A DNA stretch of 29,179 nt from a virus: the IMG/VR virus record IMGVR_UViG_3300009703_000077, positions 1-29,179 of that record. One strand, written 5' to 3'. The notes beneath the pieces were generated by a model that saw only the letters and a list, made by a program, of their open reading frames with translations, had not been told where the DNA came from and ran no database searches. This document shows, one piece after another, positions 19,940 to 25,354 of this stretch; within the stretch, counting starts at the first letter, position 1; every line of letters starts with the position of its first letter. The position numbers and the translations under genes were made by a program.

Positions 19940-20046
19940 ACATATTTTATTTTAATGACTGGATATATCTAGCCAATCATTTAGTTCTTTCGCCAAAGAC
20001 TCAGTTTCTTTCGGTGTGTTCAAAGAATAATGTTCTATGTTTTTAG
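19936..20046 (+). pseudogene. Possible truncated gene start at the junction with the modification operon
   Basis: An ATG at 19936 overlaps the previous stop (ATGA) and is preceded by GAGGAAGC, almost the same context as the start at 19724 (GGAGGAAGC). The frame has only 36 codons (MNIFYFNDWIYLANHL...) and from 19952 runs antisense through the 3' end of the kinase gene. A good start signal leading to a very short frame suggests a gene cut off when the oppositely oriented cassette was placed here. It could also be a real micro-protein or chance. Confidence 0.3.
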
Positions 20047-20494
20047 CTAGTCTTTGATTAGTGCATATATTGTTTATCTTTGTTATTCTTGATTTCTTGA
20101 ATTTTTCTGATTGATTGTCGCCTCTGTGATTATGCCTAAAGTCTAGCGTTTCAGGTATATTCTCTAACACTATAATTCTTGTGTCATAAGAATTACATAA
20201 TTTCTCTAAGTTTGTGCCAGTAAATAACCTATCACCCTCAAACAGTATGTTCTTTTCAAACTTATCTATGTATTTATCAAAGTCGCTTTGAACCGCCATA
20301 GAAAGTTTATCTGTCCCTGCGAACACTTCTTGTCTTTCGTATATACCTAAAATACTGATATTCCTTTTAGTTTCAACATATCCACGCAACAAACCATACT
20401 TAAATTTTGTTTTCGGTTGTATAAACCCCAATAAAGACCTAACTAGTGTTGTCTTACCAGTTGCAGGGACACCGCCTATAGCTACGCATTTCAT
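19952..20494 (-). CDS. P-loop kinase, likely 5-hydroxymethyl-pyrimidine DNA kinase
   Basis: This 180-aa protein has a Walker A motif GVPATGKT at residues 8-15, a central ILFEGDRLF strand that would carry the Walker B-like acidic residue, and a basic FRHNHRGDNQ segment like the lid of small-molecule kinases. By itself it would be called an AAA_33/zeta-type kinase. Its ATG overlaps the aGPT-Pplase-like gene by 4 bp and it is the last gene of the modification operon. In known thymidine-hypermodified phages a P-loop kinase phosphorylates 5-hydroxymethyluracil in DNA before amine transfer, so that role is inferred here. Substrate is not provable from sequence; a free nucleotide kinase is the alternative. 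Confidence 0.68.
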   Translation of the reverse strand: MKCVAIGGVPATGKTTLVRSLLGFIQPKTKFKYGLLRGYVETKRNISILGIYERQEVFAGTDKLSMAVQSDFDKYIDKFEKNILFEGDRLFTGTNLEKLCNSYDTRIIVLENIPETLDFRHNHRGDNQSEKFKKSRITKINNICTNQRLAKNIEHYSLNTPKETESLAKELNDWLDISSH

Positions 20495-21468
20495 AATGTT
20501 CCATACTCCAATGTTCCTGTATCTAAGAAAACCTCATATAATTCTTTCCTTATAGCTTTGCTTTCATGTAATGGTTGTTCAAGCGTTTCTTCTCTTGCGT
20601 CCCAAAACACTTGCCAATCTATACCTGCCCAATCATCAGCTTCTACTTTCTTAATTTCTTCTGCTTGTCTATCTAGATAATACCCTAAATATCTACCTTG
20701 TTTTTTTCTAAATATCTTTTTGAAGCTACACAAAAGAGTTTCCATTTGGTATAAATCCATATCCACTTTGTATTCTTTTCCAATTTCTTCTCTAATTCTT
20801 AATGCCTGTATTTCTAAGTGCTGTGTAGTTATAGGTTTTAGTTTTTTATTAATAAGTTCATCGTGGCACAAAGCATATAACAATCCATTACGATGCGACT
20901 TGCTACCGCTATAATCAGATAGTTTTAAGTTATCAGGTAAGACATTTACACCCACACAATCTTTCAATGTTTGCAAATAATACCAAGTAGAGTATCTGCC
21001 GAACTTGTGCATATTGAGAATTATGCTTTGCCAAACGAAATCAAAAGACTTTTCTTGTAGCTTATCAAACCTATGTCGCTGTGTTTTCTCTGGGTTATTG
21101 TGCATAATCCATCGTTTATAACTGGCAAATTGGTCTGGTAAATGCCCTTTATTCCATTTCGTGTCAGTTTGATAACGCAACCTGTGATAGTTTTCATTGT
21201 TCCATTTTTTTAATCTGTTTTGGTCAACCAACTCAAAATCAGGGAACTCATTCCATATAATCCAAGCTGTAGGCAAATGATAAGTAGTGCCATATATCCA
21301 AGCTATCCAATACTTTTGTTCTATATTGTGCTCATACCTGTCAAATAAATAATTCAACAACCACAATGCAGGGTCGCAGTCTTTGTGTTCTATAGACCAA
21401 ACGCACCATTCTTTGAATGCTAATTCTCTATTTTCCTGCAACCTATAATCCACGATACCCTGACTCAT
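20491..21468 (-). CDS. aGPT-Pplase-like amino acid:DNA transferase
   Basis: This 325-aa protein is Trp/Tyr-rich and helical, with HKFGRYSTWYYLQTLKD (about 154-170), GLLYALCHDE (195-204), METLLCSFKK (242-251) and GRYLGYYLDRQAEEI (258-272). I recognise this set as resembling the alpha-glutamyl/putrescinyl thymine pyrophosphorylase family, also called amino acid:DNA transferases, which have a DNA glycosylase-like helical fold. In hypermodified phages they replace the phosphorylated hydroxymethyl group on the base with an amine or amino acid. Coupling to the kinase (4-bp overlap) strongly supports this. ATG at 21468 is used here; a TTG directly before it is possible. The family call is from memory of motifs, so subfamily is uncertain. 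Confidence 0.7.
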   Translation of the reverse strand: MSQGIVDYRLQENRELAFKEWCVWSIEHKDCDPALWLLNYLFDRYEHNIEQKYWIAWIYGTTYHLPTAWIIWNEFPDFELVDQNRLKKWNNENYHRLRYQTDTKWNKGHLPDQFASYKRWIMHNNPEKTQRHRFDKLQEKSFDFVWQSIILNMHKFGRYSTWYYLQTLKDCVGVNVLPDNLKLSDYSGSKSHRNGLLYALCHDELINKKLKPITTQHLEIQALRIREEIGKEYKVDMDLYQMETLLCSFKKIFRKKQGRYLGYYLDRQAEEIKKVEADDWAGIDWQVFWDAREETLEQPLHESKAIRKELYEVFLDTGTLEYGTL

Positions 21469-22021
21469 CAAATACTTTTATACAACCGCCTCGCCCATTT
21501 TTATAAACAGCAGAATTGATAACAGGGTCTTTTATGTCATATATACCATCAGAGAAAGTTTTACCTGCTATAAGGAACATTGATAACTGACTTTTAGATT
21601 TTTGCTCACCTAACATTATGAAACCTATATTCTTATAAAAATCTACCGCTTCAGGCTCTGCTGATACTCTGAAATATCTAGCTTTATTTTGAATGGCATA
21701 CAAAAGACTGTAATTGCAGAGTTTCCTAGCTACACCTTTCCTGCGATGTTTAGCAAAAGTGTGTAGTAGTTGTAAATTAGCTACTTTTGGCTCTTTTTTA
21801 GATATGGTTGTTATAATCGCACCACACAATTCGTTATCTTCTGAATAACCAACACACCTGTTCCAATACTTACCCATGTTAGCTTTAGAAACGAATGTAT
21901 GTGCAAATTTATCAGCAACATCTTCTGTAATTGATTCACAGAATGCTTTTTTACTACACCTTGATAAACTCACGAACTTTATTGCCTCTGCTTTTATCAT
22001 GTTTGGTCTTTTGCCAACCAT
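21443..22021 (-). CDS. GNAT-family N-acyltransferase
   Basis: This 192-aa protein has the acetyl-CoA-binding motif A of GNAT enzymes, KHRRKGVARKL (Arg93-x-x-Gly96-x-Ala98), after a beta strand (LQLLHTFA), and motif B near residues 117-135 (FRVSAEPEAVDFYKNIGF). It sits in the middle of the modification operon, so acylation of an amino group on the modified base or a small precursor is a fair inference; protein or metabolite acetylation is possible. The start is uncertain: ATG at 22021 overlaps the amidoligase by 68 bp and ATG at 22000 by 47 bp. Both are unusually long overlaps for this operon. Confidence 0.8.
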   Translation of the reverse strand: MVGKRPNMIKAEAIKFVSLSRCSKKAFCESITEDVADKFAHTFVSKANMGKYWNRCVGYSEDNELCGAIITTISKKEPKVANLQLLHTFAKHRRKGVARKLCNYSLLYAIQNKARYFRVSAEPEAVDFYKNIGFIMLGEQKSKSQLSMFLIAGKTFSDGIYDIKDPVINSAVYKNGRGGCIKVFDESGYRGL

Positions 22022-22829
22022 TGTATTCTTTAATATCCCACACGAATGGTGGGAATTTATAGTCGTAAGAACTCAATATCTCATATACATTGGGTCCATC
22101 ATTCAGTGCAGCATCAATGAAGTTTTCAGCAAATTTGAATTGGTCATGTATTTCCCTTTTGTTAGTTGTAGAGCGAAAGCACCTAAATTCAATAGTTTCA
22201 GTATGTTTTAAACAATAAGTATTGATTGCATATCTGAAAGGTCTGCCCATAGAAACACCATCTTTTCCTGCAGCGTGTAATTTAATGTAATGTTCAAAGT
22301 TTTCAGCTAAATTTATAATGTTGTTGCACATATATGGTGGCATTTCTCTACCGCCATCATATTTAAGATACATCTTGGCTCCTTTTGACTTTTGCATAGC
22401 TATTCCTGCATCGTAGAAGTTATAAAGCGTAGCTATAGTAAGTGCTTGGTTAGACATAATGTATTTGGTTAGTCGTTTCAACGCTTCTATGTCGTTTATC
22501 AATTCAGGCACATGAACATGAAGGTGACCATGATTAACACAAGCAGCAGTCGGTGTGTCGCCCTTCTCAACGAAAAAATTGAACAAATCCATAATAAGTT
22601 CTACTTGTTCTTGCCAAGTAGCTGTGGGTTTTGTATTTATCTCACCGCCCATGTGTGGAGTTTCACCTAATGGGTCACATGCAACATATTGAAAAGGTTC
22701 TATAATGTTTACTATATCGGTTTCAGCATATTCCCATTTACCAAACTTTTCAGGTATCTCATGTTTCCTGTTTATATCACCCCATTCAACCTCATATCCC
22801 CATGTAAATTTCTTTTTGTCGTAATTCAT
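21954..22829 (-). CDS. Amidoligase (COOH-NH2 ligase) family enzyme
   Basis: This 291-aa protein shows the pattern of the Amidoligase_2 family, which shares the glutamine synthetase-like ATP-dependent ligase fold. GYEVEWGD (Glu13, Glu15) begins the active site, GGEINTKP (Glu63) follows, then NHGHLHVHV (His100, His102, His104, His106), and YAIN plus TIEFRCFRS (Glu214, Arg216) near the end. The enzyme would form an amide or peptide-like bond using ATP. Its ATG overlaps the glutamine amidotransferase stop by 4 bp, so the amidotransferase probably supplies ammonia. In this operon the acceptor may be an amino acid attached to a DNA base. Confidence 0.85.
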   Translation of the reverse strand: MNYDKKKFTWGYEVEWGDINRKHEIPEKFGKWEYAETDIVNIIEPFQYVACDPLGETPHMGGEINTKPTATWQEQVELIMDLFNFFVEKGDTPTAACVNHGHLHVHVPELINDIEALKRLTKYIMSNQALTIATLYNFYDAGIAMQKSKGAKMYLKYDGGREMPPYMCNNIINLAENFEHYIKLHAAGKDGVSMGRPFRYAINTYCLKHTETIEFRCFRSTTNKREIHDQFKFAENFIDAALNDGPNVYEILSSYDYKFPPFVWDIKEYNGWQKTKHDKSRGNKVREFIKV

Positions 22830-23491
22830 TGTAAATCCTCAATAACATCTCTAATTCTTATTTGTTTTAAAGCGTTATTCTGTATAACATAATCAACACA
22901 AGACTCGGTTTTTTCTATTCCGAACCCACTAATACCTGCTCTTTCCAATATATCTTTAGTACTTGCTATGAATGTATCTTTGTTCGTTTGTGCATAATAT
23001 AAAGGTCTTTGTTCGTTTCTAAAGAAATGCATAGAAGCTGTGCCTCTTGCATCTATAACTACTGCTGACATAGAACCTTCTAACCACAAAGCATGAGATT
23101 GGTTTTCCCATGCACGCAAGATAATTTCACTATCGCATTTCGTTTCAAATTTGTAGTTGTAGGTATCTTCCCATGTGCTAGGGTCTGCCTGTGTTATCAC
23201 ACCATTATGAACAACAGCTATATCTTGACTAACTATGGGTTGATTCCACTCAATATCGGAAGTGCTATAACGACAATGCGCTATCAGCATTTTTGTATAT
23301 ATATTATCAGGTATATCAAATGCATCAGCTGATTTAGGCAAAATGAAATGTTTTATTTTATTAGCATCTTTGTAGTCTATATAAGCTAGTCCAGTAGCGT
23401 GTTTGCCTCTTATCATTGACTGGTCTAATAGTTTTCTAAATGAATCTATATCTACTCCATCGTTATTATGGACACCTATAACTGCACACAT
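22826..23491 (-). CDS. Class II glutamine amidotransferase
   Basis: This 221-aa protein is a stand-alone class II (Ntn-type) glutaminase domain. After Met removal the nucleophile would be Cys2 (MCAVIGV). Other family elements are in order: IRGKHATGLAY, AHCRYST (Arg74), VVHNGVI (His95-Asn96-Gly97, oxyanion region) and KCDSEII (Asp120, glutamine binding). The domain releases ammonia from glutamine for a partner synthetase. It lacks the synthetase domain of GlmS, PurF or AsnB, and the amidoligase overlapping its 3' end is the obvious partner. All recognisable active-site residues are present, so it is likely active. Confidence 0.9.
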   Translation of the reverse strand: MCAVIGVHNNDGVDIDSFRKLLDQSMIRGKHATGLAYIDYKDANKIKHFILPKSADAFDIPDNIYTKMLIAHCRYSTSDIEWNQPIVSQDIAVVHNGVITQADPSTWEDTYNYKFETKCDSEIILRAWENQSHALWLEGSMSAVVIDARGTASMHFFRNEQRPLYYAQTNKDTFIASTKDILERAGISGFGIEKTESCVDYVIQNNALKQIRIRDVIEDLQ

Positions 23492-23499
23492 ATAATCCT

Positions 23500-24420
23500 C
23501 TACTTATCTATTAGACTTTCACCCTTTTGTCTAGTTTGTGCTCTTTCTATTTCCGCATCTGCGTCTAAACAATGGTGCATTTTTTCTCTGTAATAACAAA
23601 CGATTGATATTCTTTCGTATGCTAGTTTTGCTTTAGTTTCTGTATTAGCGTGGTATTCGTGAACATTGAAGAAACAAACATCGCCTGAACGAACATCAAA
23701 CGCTACTCTGTATCTTGGTATTACTGTGTAAGCACCTTCATATTGACCTGCTTCTAATACAGCTAAATTTCCTAAACCTTCTGCATAATCTCCTGCATCT
23801 ACATGCAATGCAGTTCTGAAGTTTTTGTTAACAGTTATAGTCGTGAATACAGTATCTTTGATAAGAAAATCTTTGCTTGTTTTTTCTGCCATAGCTTTTT
23901 GATTGGCATATCTTTCAGGACAGGCTTCTGCAAAAAGTTTATCTATATAGTGTATGTATGGATAAGCGTCTTTGAACTGTTGAAAATTCTTTTCATACCA
24001 AGATGTTTGTCGGCAGTAAGGAAACCTAGCGTTCCTATCAAAAAACCCTACAACACCTGAGTTTACTGTATTGGCTCTTGAGGTATTGCTCAAAGTTCCA
24101 TCTTTTTTGATACCGCTAAACCTTATTTTACTTAAATCGCCTATGTCCCAATCGGTTTTGGTTTGTTCAGATATTATTCCGCCTGCAGCACCTCTGTTGT
24201 TAGTTGGCGCAGCAGCATTTCTTAATGCTTTCCATGCATCTTTGCATAAACTAGAAGGTATTTTGTTTTTTCTGAAAAAAAATAATGGCTCACCATTTTC
24301 ACCATAGGCATCACAATCATCTCTTATGACTGTGTCGTAGTCTTTTTCTGTTATCCACTCTCCTTTACGCTTTGCTATCTCTTGTTTTGTGTAGTGTGGT
24401 TTTAAATTATAAACTTTCAT
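23500..24420 (-). CDS. TET/JBP-family Fe(II)/2-oxoglutarate DNA base dioxygenase
   Basis: The C-terminal half of this 306-aa protein has a double-stranded beta-helix dioxygenase pattern: TALHVDAGD (His206-x-Asp208), a central LEAGQYEGAYTVIPRYR, FDVRSGDVCFFNVHEYHANT (distal iron ligand His257, less likely His254), and YERISIVCYYRE (Arg270 for 2-oxoglutarate). The spacing and the GNLAVLEAG, HEYHANT and ISIVCYYR elements match the TET/JBP branch rather than AlkB or prolyl hydroxylases. An upstream SRANTVNSGVVGFFDRN segment (114-130) is also typical. Such enzymes oxidise the methyl of thymine (JBP) or 5-methylcytosine (TET) in DNA. The gene overlaps the ParB-like gene by 14 bp. No methyltransferase is in the window, so the base is undecided. 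Confidence 0.83.
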   Translation of the reverse strand: MKVYNLKPHYTKQEIAKRKGEWITEKDYDTVIRDDCDAYGENGEPLFFFRKNKIPSSLCKDAWKALRNAAAPTNNRGAAGGIISEQTKTDWDIGDLSKIRFSGIKKDGTLSNTSRANTVNSGVVGFFDRNARFPYCRQTSWYEKNFQQFKDAYPYIHYIDKLFAEACPERYANQKAMAEKTSKDFLIKDTVFTTITVNKNFRTALHVDAGDYAEGLGNLAVLEAGQYEGAYTVIPRYRVAFDVRSGDVCFFNVHEYHANTETKAKLAYERISIVCYYREKMHHCLDADAEIERAQTRQKGESLIDK

Positions 24421-25033
24421 CTTTATAACACTTCTCCACAGCCATATATATTGTGTCTGTGAGGTTTTCTTGACCCCACTTTTCTTTCAATCCTGCGACC
24501 ATTTCCTGAAATACTGGCTCTGTTTCTTGTGTTAAAAAGATATTGACCATACGGACATTGCTCGTTTGTATATCGTCAAAGTCAGCAATATTAGTTTCTG
24601 TTATTATTTCTTCTGGTTCTGTGAACTCTATTAAGTTTTCAGTTAATTTTTCTATTTCTCTAAAATCAAATCCAGTTAAATCCATATCAAAATTAGCTTC
24701 TGCTAGTTTCGCAAATTCTTCTGATAACATTTCTGTGTCCCACTCAGACGAGTCTTGGCTTTTGTTGTCCATTATCCTGTAAGCAGTTTTTTGTGCTTCT
24801 GTCAGACCTTTTGCTATATGAACAGGTACTTCTTCCATTTCCAACAATCTTGCAGCTTTAATTCTAGTGTGCCCTGCTAGTATCACATTTTCTTCATCTA
24901 CGATAATCGGCACTTTCCAACCGACTTCTTTGATGCTCATAATAACTTTCTCAACAGACTCTTTATTTATACGAGGGTTATTCTCATATTCTTTTAATGC
25001 CTCTGTTTTCATCATTTGAACATCGTATGCCAT
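24407..25033 (-). CDS. ParB-like N-terminal domain protein
   Basis: The frame is open to 25057, but ATG at 25033 is chosen because it follows GGAG at a good distance and lies one base after the regulator stop, giving 208 aa. Residues 5-85 form a ParB/Srx-like domain: ALKEYENNPRINKESVEKVI, then IIVDEENVILAGHTRIKAAR with the GHTR motif at 54-57. The rest is acidic and helical. Known members bind or hydrolyse nucleotides or cut DNA, and ParB-like genes are frequent beside phage base-modification genes. It may link the modification machinery to DNA. It is not a partition system: no ParA is present. Confidence 0.85.
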   Translation of the reverse strand: MAYDVQMMKTEALKEYENNPRINKESVEKVIMSIKEVGWKVPIIVDEENVILAGHTRIKAARLLEMEEVPVHIAKGLTEAQKTAYRIMDNKSQDSSEWDTEMLSEEFAKLAEANFDMDLTGFDFREIEKLTENLIEFTEPEEIITETNIADFDDIQTSNVRMVNIFLTQETEPVFQEMVAGLKEKWGQENLTDTIYMAVEKCYKDESL

Positions 25034-25034
25034 A

Positions 25035-25244
25035 TTATTTCTCCAAATAAAAATCATTGGGCGACACTTGTTCTTTGGTCGCTATGTAGATTATGTTTAA
25101 TTCCTTCTTTCTAGGTATGCGTTGACCTAGAATGTATTTAGCTAATGTGCCTTGTGGTAGCGTGTGCCCTGTTTGCTCTTTCACTTCTTTTATAAAGGCA
25201 GACTGGGTGTATTTATTGTCTTTTAAATATTCTGTTAAAGTCAT
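25035..25244 (-). CDS. Small Xre/Cro-like helix-turn-helix regulator
   Basis: This 69-aa protein has a helix-turn-helix over most of its length: YTQSAFIKEVKEQTG, then LPQGTLAKYILGQRIPRKKEL, followed by a short C-terminal beta/helix segment. It is the first gene of the leftward modification operon and faces the recombination arm across a 110-bp control region containing two tandem promoter-operator units. A Cro-like repressor of its own operon and of the divergent genes is the natural reading. It may also bind the ATTCC-N5-GGGTT elements elsewhere, which is untested. The last codons (LEK and stop) contain the ribosome-binding site of the ParB-like gene. Confidence 0.75.
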   Translation of the reverse strand: MTLTEYLKDNKYTQSAFIKEVKEQTGHTLPQGTLAKYILGQRIPRKKELNIIYIATKEQVSPNDFYLEK

Positions 25245-25252
25245 GTTTTCAC

Positions 25253-25309
25253 TTGCTTATATTCCAATAAGGGATTATACTTGCTTTATTCCTAAATGGA
25301 ATTATAGTT
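25253..25309. promoter_or_regulatory. Divergent control region with two tandem promoter-operator units
   Basis: On the plus strand, TTGCTT (25253-25258) is 17 bases from TATACT (25276-25281), and TTGCTT (25281-25286) is 16 bases from TATAGT (25303-25308). Each spacer contains an operator-like site: ATTCC-AATAA-GGGAT (25261-25275) and TTCC-TAAAT-GGAA (25290-25302), the latter a perfect inverted repeat. On the minus strand TATAAT (25279-25274) overlaps the first plus-strand -10 box and could serve the regulator/modification operon. The ~28-bp unit looks tandemly duplicated. Confidence 0.65.
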
Positions 25310-25354
25310 AAGAACATTAAATTCGTCAAATGATATTAAAATGAGGAGAATAAA

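Follow-up and report, generated by a model that had tools for sequence, protein, structure and literature searches.

The phages M6, ViI, phiW-14 and PaMx11 hypermodify thymidine with a 5-hmdU DNA kinase, an amino acid:DNA transferase (ADDT, earlier named aGPT-PPlase) that acts on 5-phosphomethyl-dU, and swappable tailoring enzymes. In the base J pathway of kinetoplastids, JBP1/2 oxidise thymine in DNA and a glucosyltransferase is also involved. A TET-based C5-cytosine hypermodification (Pfam TAGT) is said to have been described from phage metagenomes by Burke in 2021. The 5hmdU and kinase steps are given as common to thymidine hypermodification in one account (PMC6449724), and a five-gene putative thymidine-hypermodification set with a ParB-TET-ADDT-kinase core has been published for Rhodococcus phage Tonitrus (PMC11955845). 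Here, we describe an operon of a marine phage that combines these families with three further enzymes, and we consider it quite probable that the operon is a TET-initiated variant of thymidine hypermodification, running after replication from oxidation to tailoring.

The window, the whole 29,179-nucleotide stretch of DNA that was analyzed, is 99.96% identical to part (positions 4420-33598) of a 53.8 kb contig that comes from this phage. Seven overlapping or nearly overlapping genes occupy 19952-25057 on the minus strand and encode a ParB-like protein, a TET/JBP dioxygenase, a class II glutamine amidotransferase (GAT-II), an amidoligase, a GNAT acyltransferase, an ADDT and a P-loop kinase. The preliminary description had claimed seven tightly packed minus-strand genes of these families; all seven open reading frames were found, and the family assignments are supported by Pfam profiles, by catalytic residues and, for two of the proteins, by structure models. 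An eighth gene (25035-25244, minus strand; HTH_3 0.009, below cut-off) precedes the ParB gene and is kept as the first gene in the nearest relatives; its product, a 69-aa HTH protein, is a possible autoregulator of the operon. A promoter-like site, TTGACG-17-TATAAT (25301-25329, read from 25329 to 25301 on the minus strand), agrees with 11/12 consensus positions and is a putative promoter by consensus match only. Neither Rfam nor tRNA searches gave any match in the window. By terminase, the closest relatives among named phages are phages of Microcystis, Roseobacter and Brevundimonas; these hosts were not conclusive, and the host was therefore left unassigned. GTDB genomes were searched for a culturable host carrying the complete operon in a prophage, and only two MAG contigs turned up.

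The ParB-like protein (24407-25033, minus strand) matches ParB_N (4.2e-7), phrog_620 (8e-51) and phrog_498 (DNA methyltransferase, 2e-44). Although its open frame reaches 25057, translation probably starts at the ATG at 25033, giving 208 aa; this start, proposed previously, is favoured by an upstream GGAGAA and by the lengths of the relatives, mostly 200-210 aa. The TET/JBP dioxygenase (23500-24420, minus strand; Tet_JBP 1.9e-24) retains an intact active site: across 83 sequences H206, D208 and H257 are invariant and R270 is 99% conserved, and these residues are interpreted as ligands of Fe(II) and 2-oxoglutarate. Searching by sequence for solved structures related to the TET, the kinase and the amidoligase gave no useful match.

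The P-loop kinase (19952-20494, minus strand; 180 aa; AAA_18 5e-4, below cut-off) is predicted to be a 5-hydroxymethyl-base DNA kinase. It carries the Walker A motif GVPATGKTT, and G13, K14, G50, G60, D62 and E86-G87 are invariant in 75 sequences. A profile built from IMG/VR loci only retrieves P-loop kinases beside ADDT or TET genes in Cr30 (3e-43) and Melnitz (3e-36), as well as in Terij, Montesquieu, Magpie and Simon. The protein, itself below HMUDK cut-offs, is thereby linked to the ADDT-adjacent kinases of Magpie (Ploopntkinase3) and Simon (HMUDK-like). Its PHROG label, 'terminase small subunit' (phrog_800), looks like a misannotation. The ADDT (20491-21471, minus strand; 326 aa, with a start that may instead be the ATG at 21468) matches Pfam ADDT (PF18724, 1e-20) and phrog_3271 (3e-51). 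Its structure model (pLDDT 94) has as top PDB match 8z2n/8z2m (probability 1.00, TM 0.54/0.60), the solved 5-phosphomethyl-dU (5-PmdU) glycinyltransferase gp46/PUGT of a Pseudomonas phage. Neither the 180-aa nor the 326-aa protein thus falls in an unrelated family, the former grouping with kinases beside ADDT or TET genes and the latter being an ADDT by both profile and model.

The substrate of the TET enzyme was assessed from the company it keeps. The cytosine-C5 methyltransferase family PF00145 was found in 0/105 IMG/VR operon records, some of them contigs of 53-168 kb, with a search that was able to find such an enzyme, since it detected the one in Methylophilales phage Melnitz. The dUMP-hydroxymethylase family PF00303 was above cut-off in 0/43 TET-operon records and was absent from this phage's own 53.8 kb contig, whereas it was present in 5/5 TET-less ADDT phages. 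As TET-operon phages have neither family, the TET probably oxidises thymine in DNA, and the modified base is probably thymine rather than cytosine. Two genes of large-contig phages were also considered as methyltransferase candidates and rejected: a gene of ~469 aa just upstream of TET, taken as a possible C5-methyltransferase, encodes a DnaB-like helicase, and the gene of ~430-515 aa before ADDT, taken as a possible DNA methyltransferase, belongs either to a family with a ParB_N-like domain (hhalign 7e-7) or to another family without it.

Alternatively, 5mC made by a host or unrecognised phage C5-methyltransferase could be oxidised by TET to 5hmC and carried through kinase, ADDT and tailoring to a hypermodified cytosine. 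Phage TETs assayed so far reportedly use 5mC from a co-encoded C5-methyltransferase, and a supply of 5mC by host methyltransferases is conceivable. In Melnitz the kinase, TET and C5-methyltransferase genes are neighbours, so the kinase alone is no proof of thymine, and sister operons carry a TET-associated glycosyltransferase (TAGT). However, the lack of PF00145 across all operon records, the way in which TET stands in for the dUMP-hydroxymethylase family among ADDT phages, and the substrate of the solved ADDT relative, 5-phosphomethyl-dU, all count against a cytosine route, which we regard as improbable.

The remaining genes are those of the tailoring group. The GAT-II (22826-23491, minus strand), an Ntn glutaminase domain, matches GATase_6 (3.1e-12); its family profile matches PurF, GlmS and AsnB chains, and the N-terminal Cys nucleophile, C2, together with residues R74, N96-G97 and D120 is kept except in one type (L062). 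The amidoligase, a glutamine-synthetase-like COOH-NH2 ligase (21954-22829, minus strand), matches Amidoligase_2 at 0.011, below cut-off, but 13/14 of its relatives match this family (best 2.1e-8), the motifs GxExE, GGExN, HxH, RxxxN and ExR are invariant, and its model (pLDDT 85) resembles glutamine synthetase/gamma-GCS folds. The GNAT acyltransferase (21443-22021, minus strand; Acetyltransf_10 6.7e-14) is of a type that we call a; a type b GNAT found in the same slot elsewhere is 16-21% identical to it.

Many of the records compared are fragments, and neighbours were counted only where the contig allowed. With 80 amidoligase loci forming 34 clusters at 90% identity, the seven-enzyme operon exists in at least 34 distinct versions among environmental phages; GAT-II lies directly upstream of the amidoligase in 76/76 loci, and ADDT (43/43), kinase (43/43) and TET (52/53) accompany it. 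Gene content in 64 TET loci is perfectly nested, amidoligase < GNAT < GAT-II < ADDT < kinase < TET: every amidoligase locus has both GNAT and GAT-II (11/11), every GAT-II locus has ADDT (42/42) and every ADDT locus has the kinase (52/52). In three pairs of close relatives, amidoligase plus type a GNAT is exchanged for type b GNAT. The ParB-TET...kinase frame stays constant while the ADDT subtype and its partner vary, the subtype tracking whether the partner is GAT-II, an FAD enzyme, a PLP enzyme or a methyltransferase. Loci with the FAD enzyme either lack GAT-II or have a GAT-II with active-site residues missing (four cases), as would be expected if both routes yield 5-aminomethyl-dU.

The following pathway is suggested. 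Oxidation of the 5-methyl group of thymine in phage DNA by the TET/JBP enzyme, perhaps with the ParB-like protein as its guide, would give 5-hydroxymethyl-dU, a step replacing the dUMP hydroxymethylase of phages such as ViI and M6; the kinase would then form 5-phosphomethyl-dU, the ADDT would swap the phosphate for a nitrogen nucleophile, and GAT-II, amidoligase and GNAT would supply the final group. The first three steps are based on family membership and genomic complementarity, and the fourth on nesting and module swaps. A stepwise pathway had been put forward in the preliminary description; it is supported by the nesting, the swaps and the co-occurrence of the operon families in >100 phage records, with catalysis predicted. 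The final base is most likely a nitrogen-linked, amidated or acylated thymine, and the product probably protects the phage genome against host nucleases.

For the last steps, we tentatively prefer an order in which ammonia from GAT-II serves as the ADDT nucleophile to give 5-aminomethyl-dU, whose amine is then acylated by amidoligase and GNAT. In the loci compared, GAT-II is coupled to the ADDT itself and not to the amidoligase alone. The ADDT counts against this order in retaining the fold of a glycine-using, not an ammonia-using, enzyme. The complete scheme, in which TET oxidises thymine and not 5mC in finished DNA, GAT-II and ADDT deliver ammonia in a PurF-like manner, and the GS-like ligase and GNAT acylate the base on DNA, is possible but doubtful. 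We know of no earlier case in which an amidotransferase and an amidoligase act in this way on a DNA pyrimidine.

The glycinyltransferase-like fold of the ADDT instead favours the addition of an amino acid to 5-phosphomethyl-dU. GAT-II and amidoligase would next work on the carboxylate of this amino acid as asparagine synthetase does, amidating or extending it, and GNAT would cap the amine. Pairing GAT-II with a carboxylate ligase is a textbook arrangement, and the two genes are overlapping neighbours throughout the amidoligase loci, as this order would have it. Yet the amidoligase is missing in 31/42 GAT-II loci, GAT-II is tied to one ADDT subtype, and phage Simon has the FAD enzyme and an amidoligase without GAT-II, so that adding an amino acid first seems unlikely. 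Far less probable still, GAT-II, amidoligase and GNAT would share only the operon with the other genes and would modify peptides or small molecules as a system of their own. Such phage sets were reportedly predicted by Iyer in 2009 to have peptide or cell-wall roles, and in LUZ24 a RimK-domain gene is found close to a GAT-II gene, in a neighbourhood that has no annotated ADDT; against this stand the perfect nesting, the coupling to ADDT subtype, and the presence of amidoligase relatives together with ADDT in TET phages, in Simon, which is a TS-type phage, and on a MAG contig of WOR-3.

If the preferred pathway is correct, phage TET/JBP enzymes include thymine oxidases that start post-replicative hypermodification beside the nucleotide-level route, which bears on how base J and the TET enzymes originated; the ammonia-first order would mean a new DNA base. 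The modification appears to be carried by many environmental phages, some with large genomes. Among GenBank/INPHARED phages the amidoligase has only two homologues, both distant and neither in a TET phage, so the modification is apparently unsampled. The gene set offers testable DNA-modifying enzymes, including a predicted GS-like ligase and glutaminase acting on DNA, and the tailoring swaps (amidoligase plus type a GNAT against type b GNAT, FAD, PLP, methyltransferase) are matched pairs for assigning enzyme to group.

Compared with the known systems, the operon resembles M6, ViI, phiW-14 and PaMx11 in placing a kinase before an ADDT, its own ADDT being closest in structure to PUGT gp46. In those phages, however, 5-hmdU is made before replication by a TS-family dUMP hydroxymethylase; this enzyme is absent here and TET/JBP takes its place, so we class the operon as a TET-fed variant rather than a standard member. 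GAT-II and amidoligase are unmentioned in the available parts of the accounts of those pathways, and Iyer 2013 and Lee 2021 may describe them in TET operons. The ParB-TET-ADDT-kinase core, already known from Tonitrus, is shared with Tonitrus and Mycobacterium phage Magpie/Bane1, TET, ADDT and kinase with Caulobacter phage Cr30, and ParB-TET-kinase with Microbacterium phage Terij, whereas GAT-II, present here, has no match in Magpie or Terij and is not named for Tonitrus; whether the GAT-II and amidoligase additions are new is in doubt, depending on their absence from Iyer 2013 and Lee 2021. As in the reported cytosine system, a phage TET would oxidise a 5-methyl pyrimidine in DNA with tailoring afterwards, but the operon has a kinase and an ADDT in place of a C5-methyltransferase and TAGT. 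With base J it shares a TET/JBP enzyme predicted to oxidise thymine in DNA; glucosylation follows there, whereas phosphate and nitrogen chemistry is predicted here.

The same phage is also represented by a 53.8 kb contig that contains the IMG/VR virus record (29,179 bases) at 99.96% identity and on which terminase, portal, capsid and tail genes were read among the ORFs. On the minus strand at 19952-25244, eight close-set genes encode, in order, HTH, ParB, TET/JBP, class II glutamine amidotransferase (GAT-II), amidoligase, GNAT, amino acid:DNA transferase (ADDT) and P-loop kinase proteins, and a promoter-like site ahead of them matched 11 of 12 consensus positions. The preliminary description had proposed a seven-gene operon for stepwise DNA base hypermodification, and its assignments of TET/JBP, ADDT, GAT-II, GNAT and ParB were borne out by Pfam matches above cut-off. 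Residues conserved across the TET (H206, D208, H257, R270) and GAT-II (C2, R74, N96-G97, D120) families, and the Walker A motif conserved across the kinase family, are those we take to be catalytic, from what is established for these families. Several TETs are labeled "SNF2 DNA repair protein". Elsewhere on the contig (~37.4–41.8 kb, spanning the end of locus L158 and the start of L159), ORFs resembling a CsgG lipoprotein, curlin-like repeats and CHASE2 were recognized by eye only.

Pfam calls for the amidoligase and kinase were weak when the window protein was taken singly. At the family level, 13 of 14 amidoligase members matched Amidoligase_2 (best 2.1e-8), and the motifs GxExE, GGExN, HxH, RxxxN and ExR were invariant. 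An amidoligase model built from twelve relatives (pLDDT 85, pTM 0.87) matched glutamine synthetases and gamma-glutamylcysteine synthetases in the PDB (best E 4.8e-4). The ADDT model (pLDDT 94) matched best 8z2n and 8z2m, structures of gp46/PUGT, a Pseudomonas phage enzyme that acts as a 5-phosphomethyl-dU glycinyltransferase (probability 1.00, TM 0.54/0.60); 8-oxoguanine DNA glycosylases followed, far weaker. A kinase profile made from IMG/VR loci only matched P-loop kinases adjoining ADDT or TET in phages Cr30, Melnitz, Terij, Montesquieu, Magpie and Simon; the Magpie kinase is Pfam Ploopntkinase3, and that of Simon is closest to HMUDK_HMUD1. The label "terminase small subunit" given to this family in PHROG phrog_800 and the RefSeq Cr30 record (NC_025422, 51812-52318) is probably a misannotation.

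IMG/VR loci were collected by a TET search (70 loci) and by further ADDT and kinase searches. Among the 64 with an assessable operon end, gene content was perfectly nested: TET 64, kinase 56, ADDT 52, GAT-II 42, GNAT 36 and amidoligase 11. Nesting of ADDT within kinase and of GAT-II within ADDT also held when only the unbiased loci of the TET scan were counted (Fisher p 1.6e-5 and 1.7e-4, respectively), values that are optimistic because related loci are not independent. On the TET tree, amidoligase presence required at least five changes; the gene has therefore been repeatedly gained or lost, yet never outside this gene set. A profile-level search gave 378 confirmed amidoligase matches. Grouped at 90% identity, the best 80 of the 378 fall into 34 clusters, and their contigs reach 168 kb. 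Among these 80, GAT-II lay directly upstream in 76/76 and GNAT directly downstream in 73/75, and where contigs were long enough, ADDT (43/43), kinase (43/43) and TET (52/53) were nearby.

The same enzymes also occur without TET. Phage Simon carries ADDT, an FAD enzyme, amidoligase, a low-molecular-weight (LMW) phosphatase and kinase together, with a gene of the thymidylate synthase-type (TS) family and neither TET nor GAT-II. On a WOR-3 MAG contig, consecutive genes encode GAT-II, ADDT, an amidoligase fused to an LMW phosphatase, and a radical SAM protein, and no TET was found in that genome. Thus, amidoligase and GAT-II accompany ADDT even in the absence of TET. An LMW phosphatase is fused to, or follows, the amidoligase in L176:7992-9371 and L078:6986-8396.

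Regarding the modified base, cytosine C5-methyltransferase (PF00145) was looked for three times in a total of 105 IMG/VR operon records and not found; the same search detected that of Melnitz, which adjoins TET and kinase. In the Melnitz locus, the C5-methyltransferase, TET, a 427-aa protein of no assigned family and a kinase of the operon type are consecutive, likely a cytosine version with the same kinase type. The dUMP hydroxymethylase family (PF00303) was present in all five TET-less ADDT phages (Cygsa01, Vibrio 1.255.O, Maynard, Simon and Montesquieu) and was above cut-off in none of 43 IMG/VR TET or ADDT-operon records, a set comprising many fragmentary contigs and excluding the large-contig amidoligase phages, with one sub-threshold match in record G004. 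On this pattern, TET seems to take the place of the hydroxymethylase, which would indicate thymine as the base. Six loci (L034, L035, L037, L043, L046 and L048) have ParB-TET followed by a TET-associated glycosyltransferase (TAGT in L034 and L043) and no C5-methyltransferase in their searched records; they are candidates for base-J-like glycosylated hydroxymethyluracil in phages.

Within the operon, modules were exchanged. Three close phage pairs (L003/L004, L100/L102 and L096/L099) differ in what lies between GAT-II and ADDT: amidoligase plus one GNAT type (GNAT-a, as in the window) in one phage and a second type, GNAT-b, in the other. The ParB-TET...kinase frame also held an FAD oxidoreductase (L018, L019 and L062) or an N6/N4-methyltransferase-like gene (L050 group). 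In L124:5866-8001 and L130:2063-4195, the TET-operon ADDT carries a fused domain, a homologue of the Montesquieu ACC-deaminase-like protein and probably a PLP domain; the sister operons L034 and L043 carry the glycosyltransferase instead. The ADDT tree split GAT-II, FAD, PLP and methyltransferase types, even though some of their TETs are close kin. GAT-II ADDTs separated from the rest with support of only 70/61 with the WOR-3 sequence present, and 96/99 for those of TET operons alone. In five loci of large-contig phages (L180, L196, L239, L252 and L175), GNAT and ADDT are separated by a ~440-aa gene whose product has a ParB_N-like domain (hhalign 7e-7) and, weakly and by eye, a GIY-YIG-like N-terminus; other loci have an HNH-looking 500-aa gene in this slot. 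A Dam-like N6-adenine methyltransferase (PF05869, 9.9e-16) lies between TET and GAT-II at L015:10919-11335.

The assigned families, their conserved residues, the modelled folds, co-occurrence and the module swaps support a pathway in which TET would oxidize thymine, the kinase would phosphorylate, a nitrogen nucleophile would displace the phosphate at ADDT, and GAT-II, amidoligase and GNAT would tailor the product. ADDT might instead add an amino acid first, whose carboxylate GAT-II and amidoligase then amidate or extend. We consider that order less likely and prefer that ammonia from GAT-II would feed ADDT to give 5-aminomethyl-dU, because 31 of the 42 loci with GAT-II had no amidoligase, GAT-II has a matching ADDT subtype, and precisely those operons that carried the FAD enzyme had a decayed GAT-II or none. 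The PaMx11 FAD enzyme gp47 reportedly makes 5-aminomethyl-dU. PurF, which pairs a GAT-II with a reaction where ammonia displaces a phosphate group, may serve as an analogy for the GAT-II/ADDT step.

In TS-type phages, tailoring by swappable enzymes is established. The ParB, TET-like, aGPT-PPlase2 and 5-hmU kinase genes of phage Tonitrus have been described as a thymidine-hypermodification system (PMC11955845). Some of the present findings may have been foreseen in Iyer 2013. As far as the literature was checked, what the operon adds to these systems is the complementarity of TET and hydroxymethylase, the nesting of gene content, the extension by GAT-II, amidoligase and GNAT together with its own ADDT subtype, the cassette swaps and the breadth of distribution.
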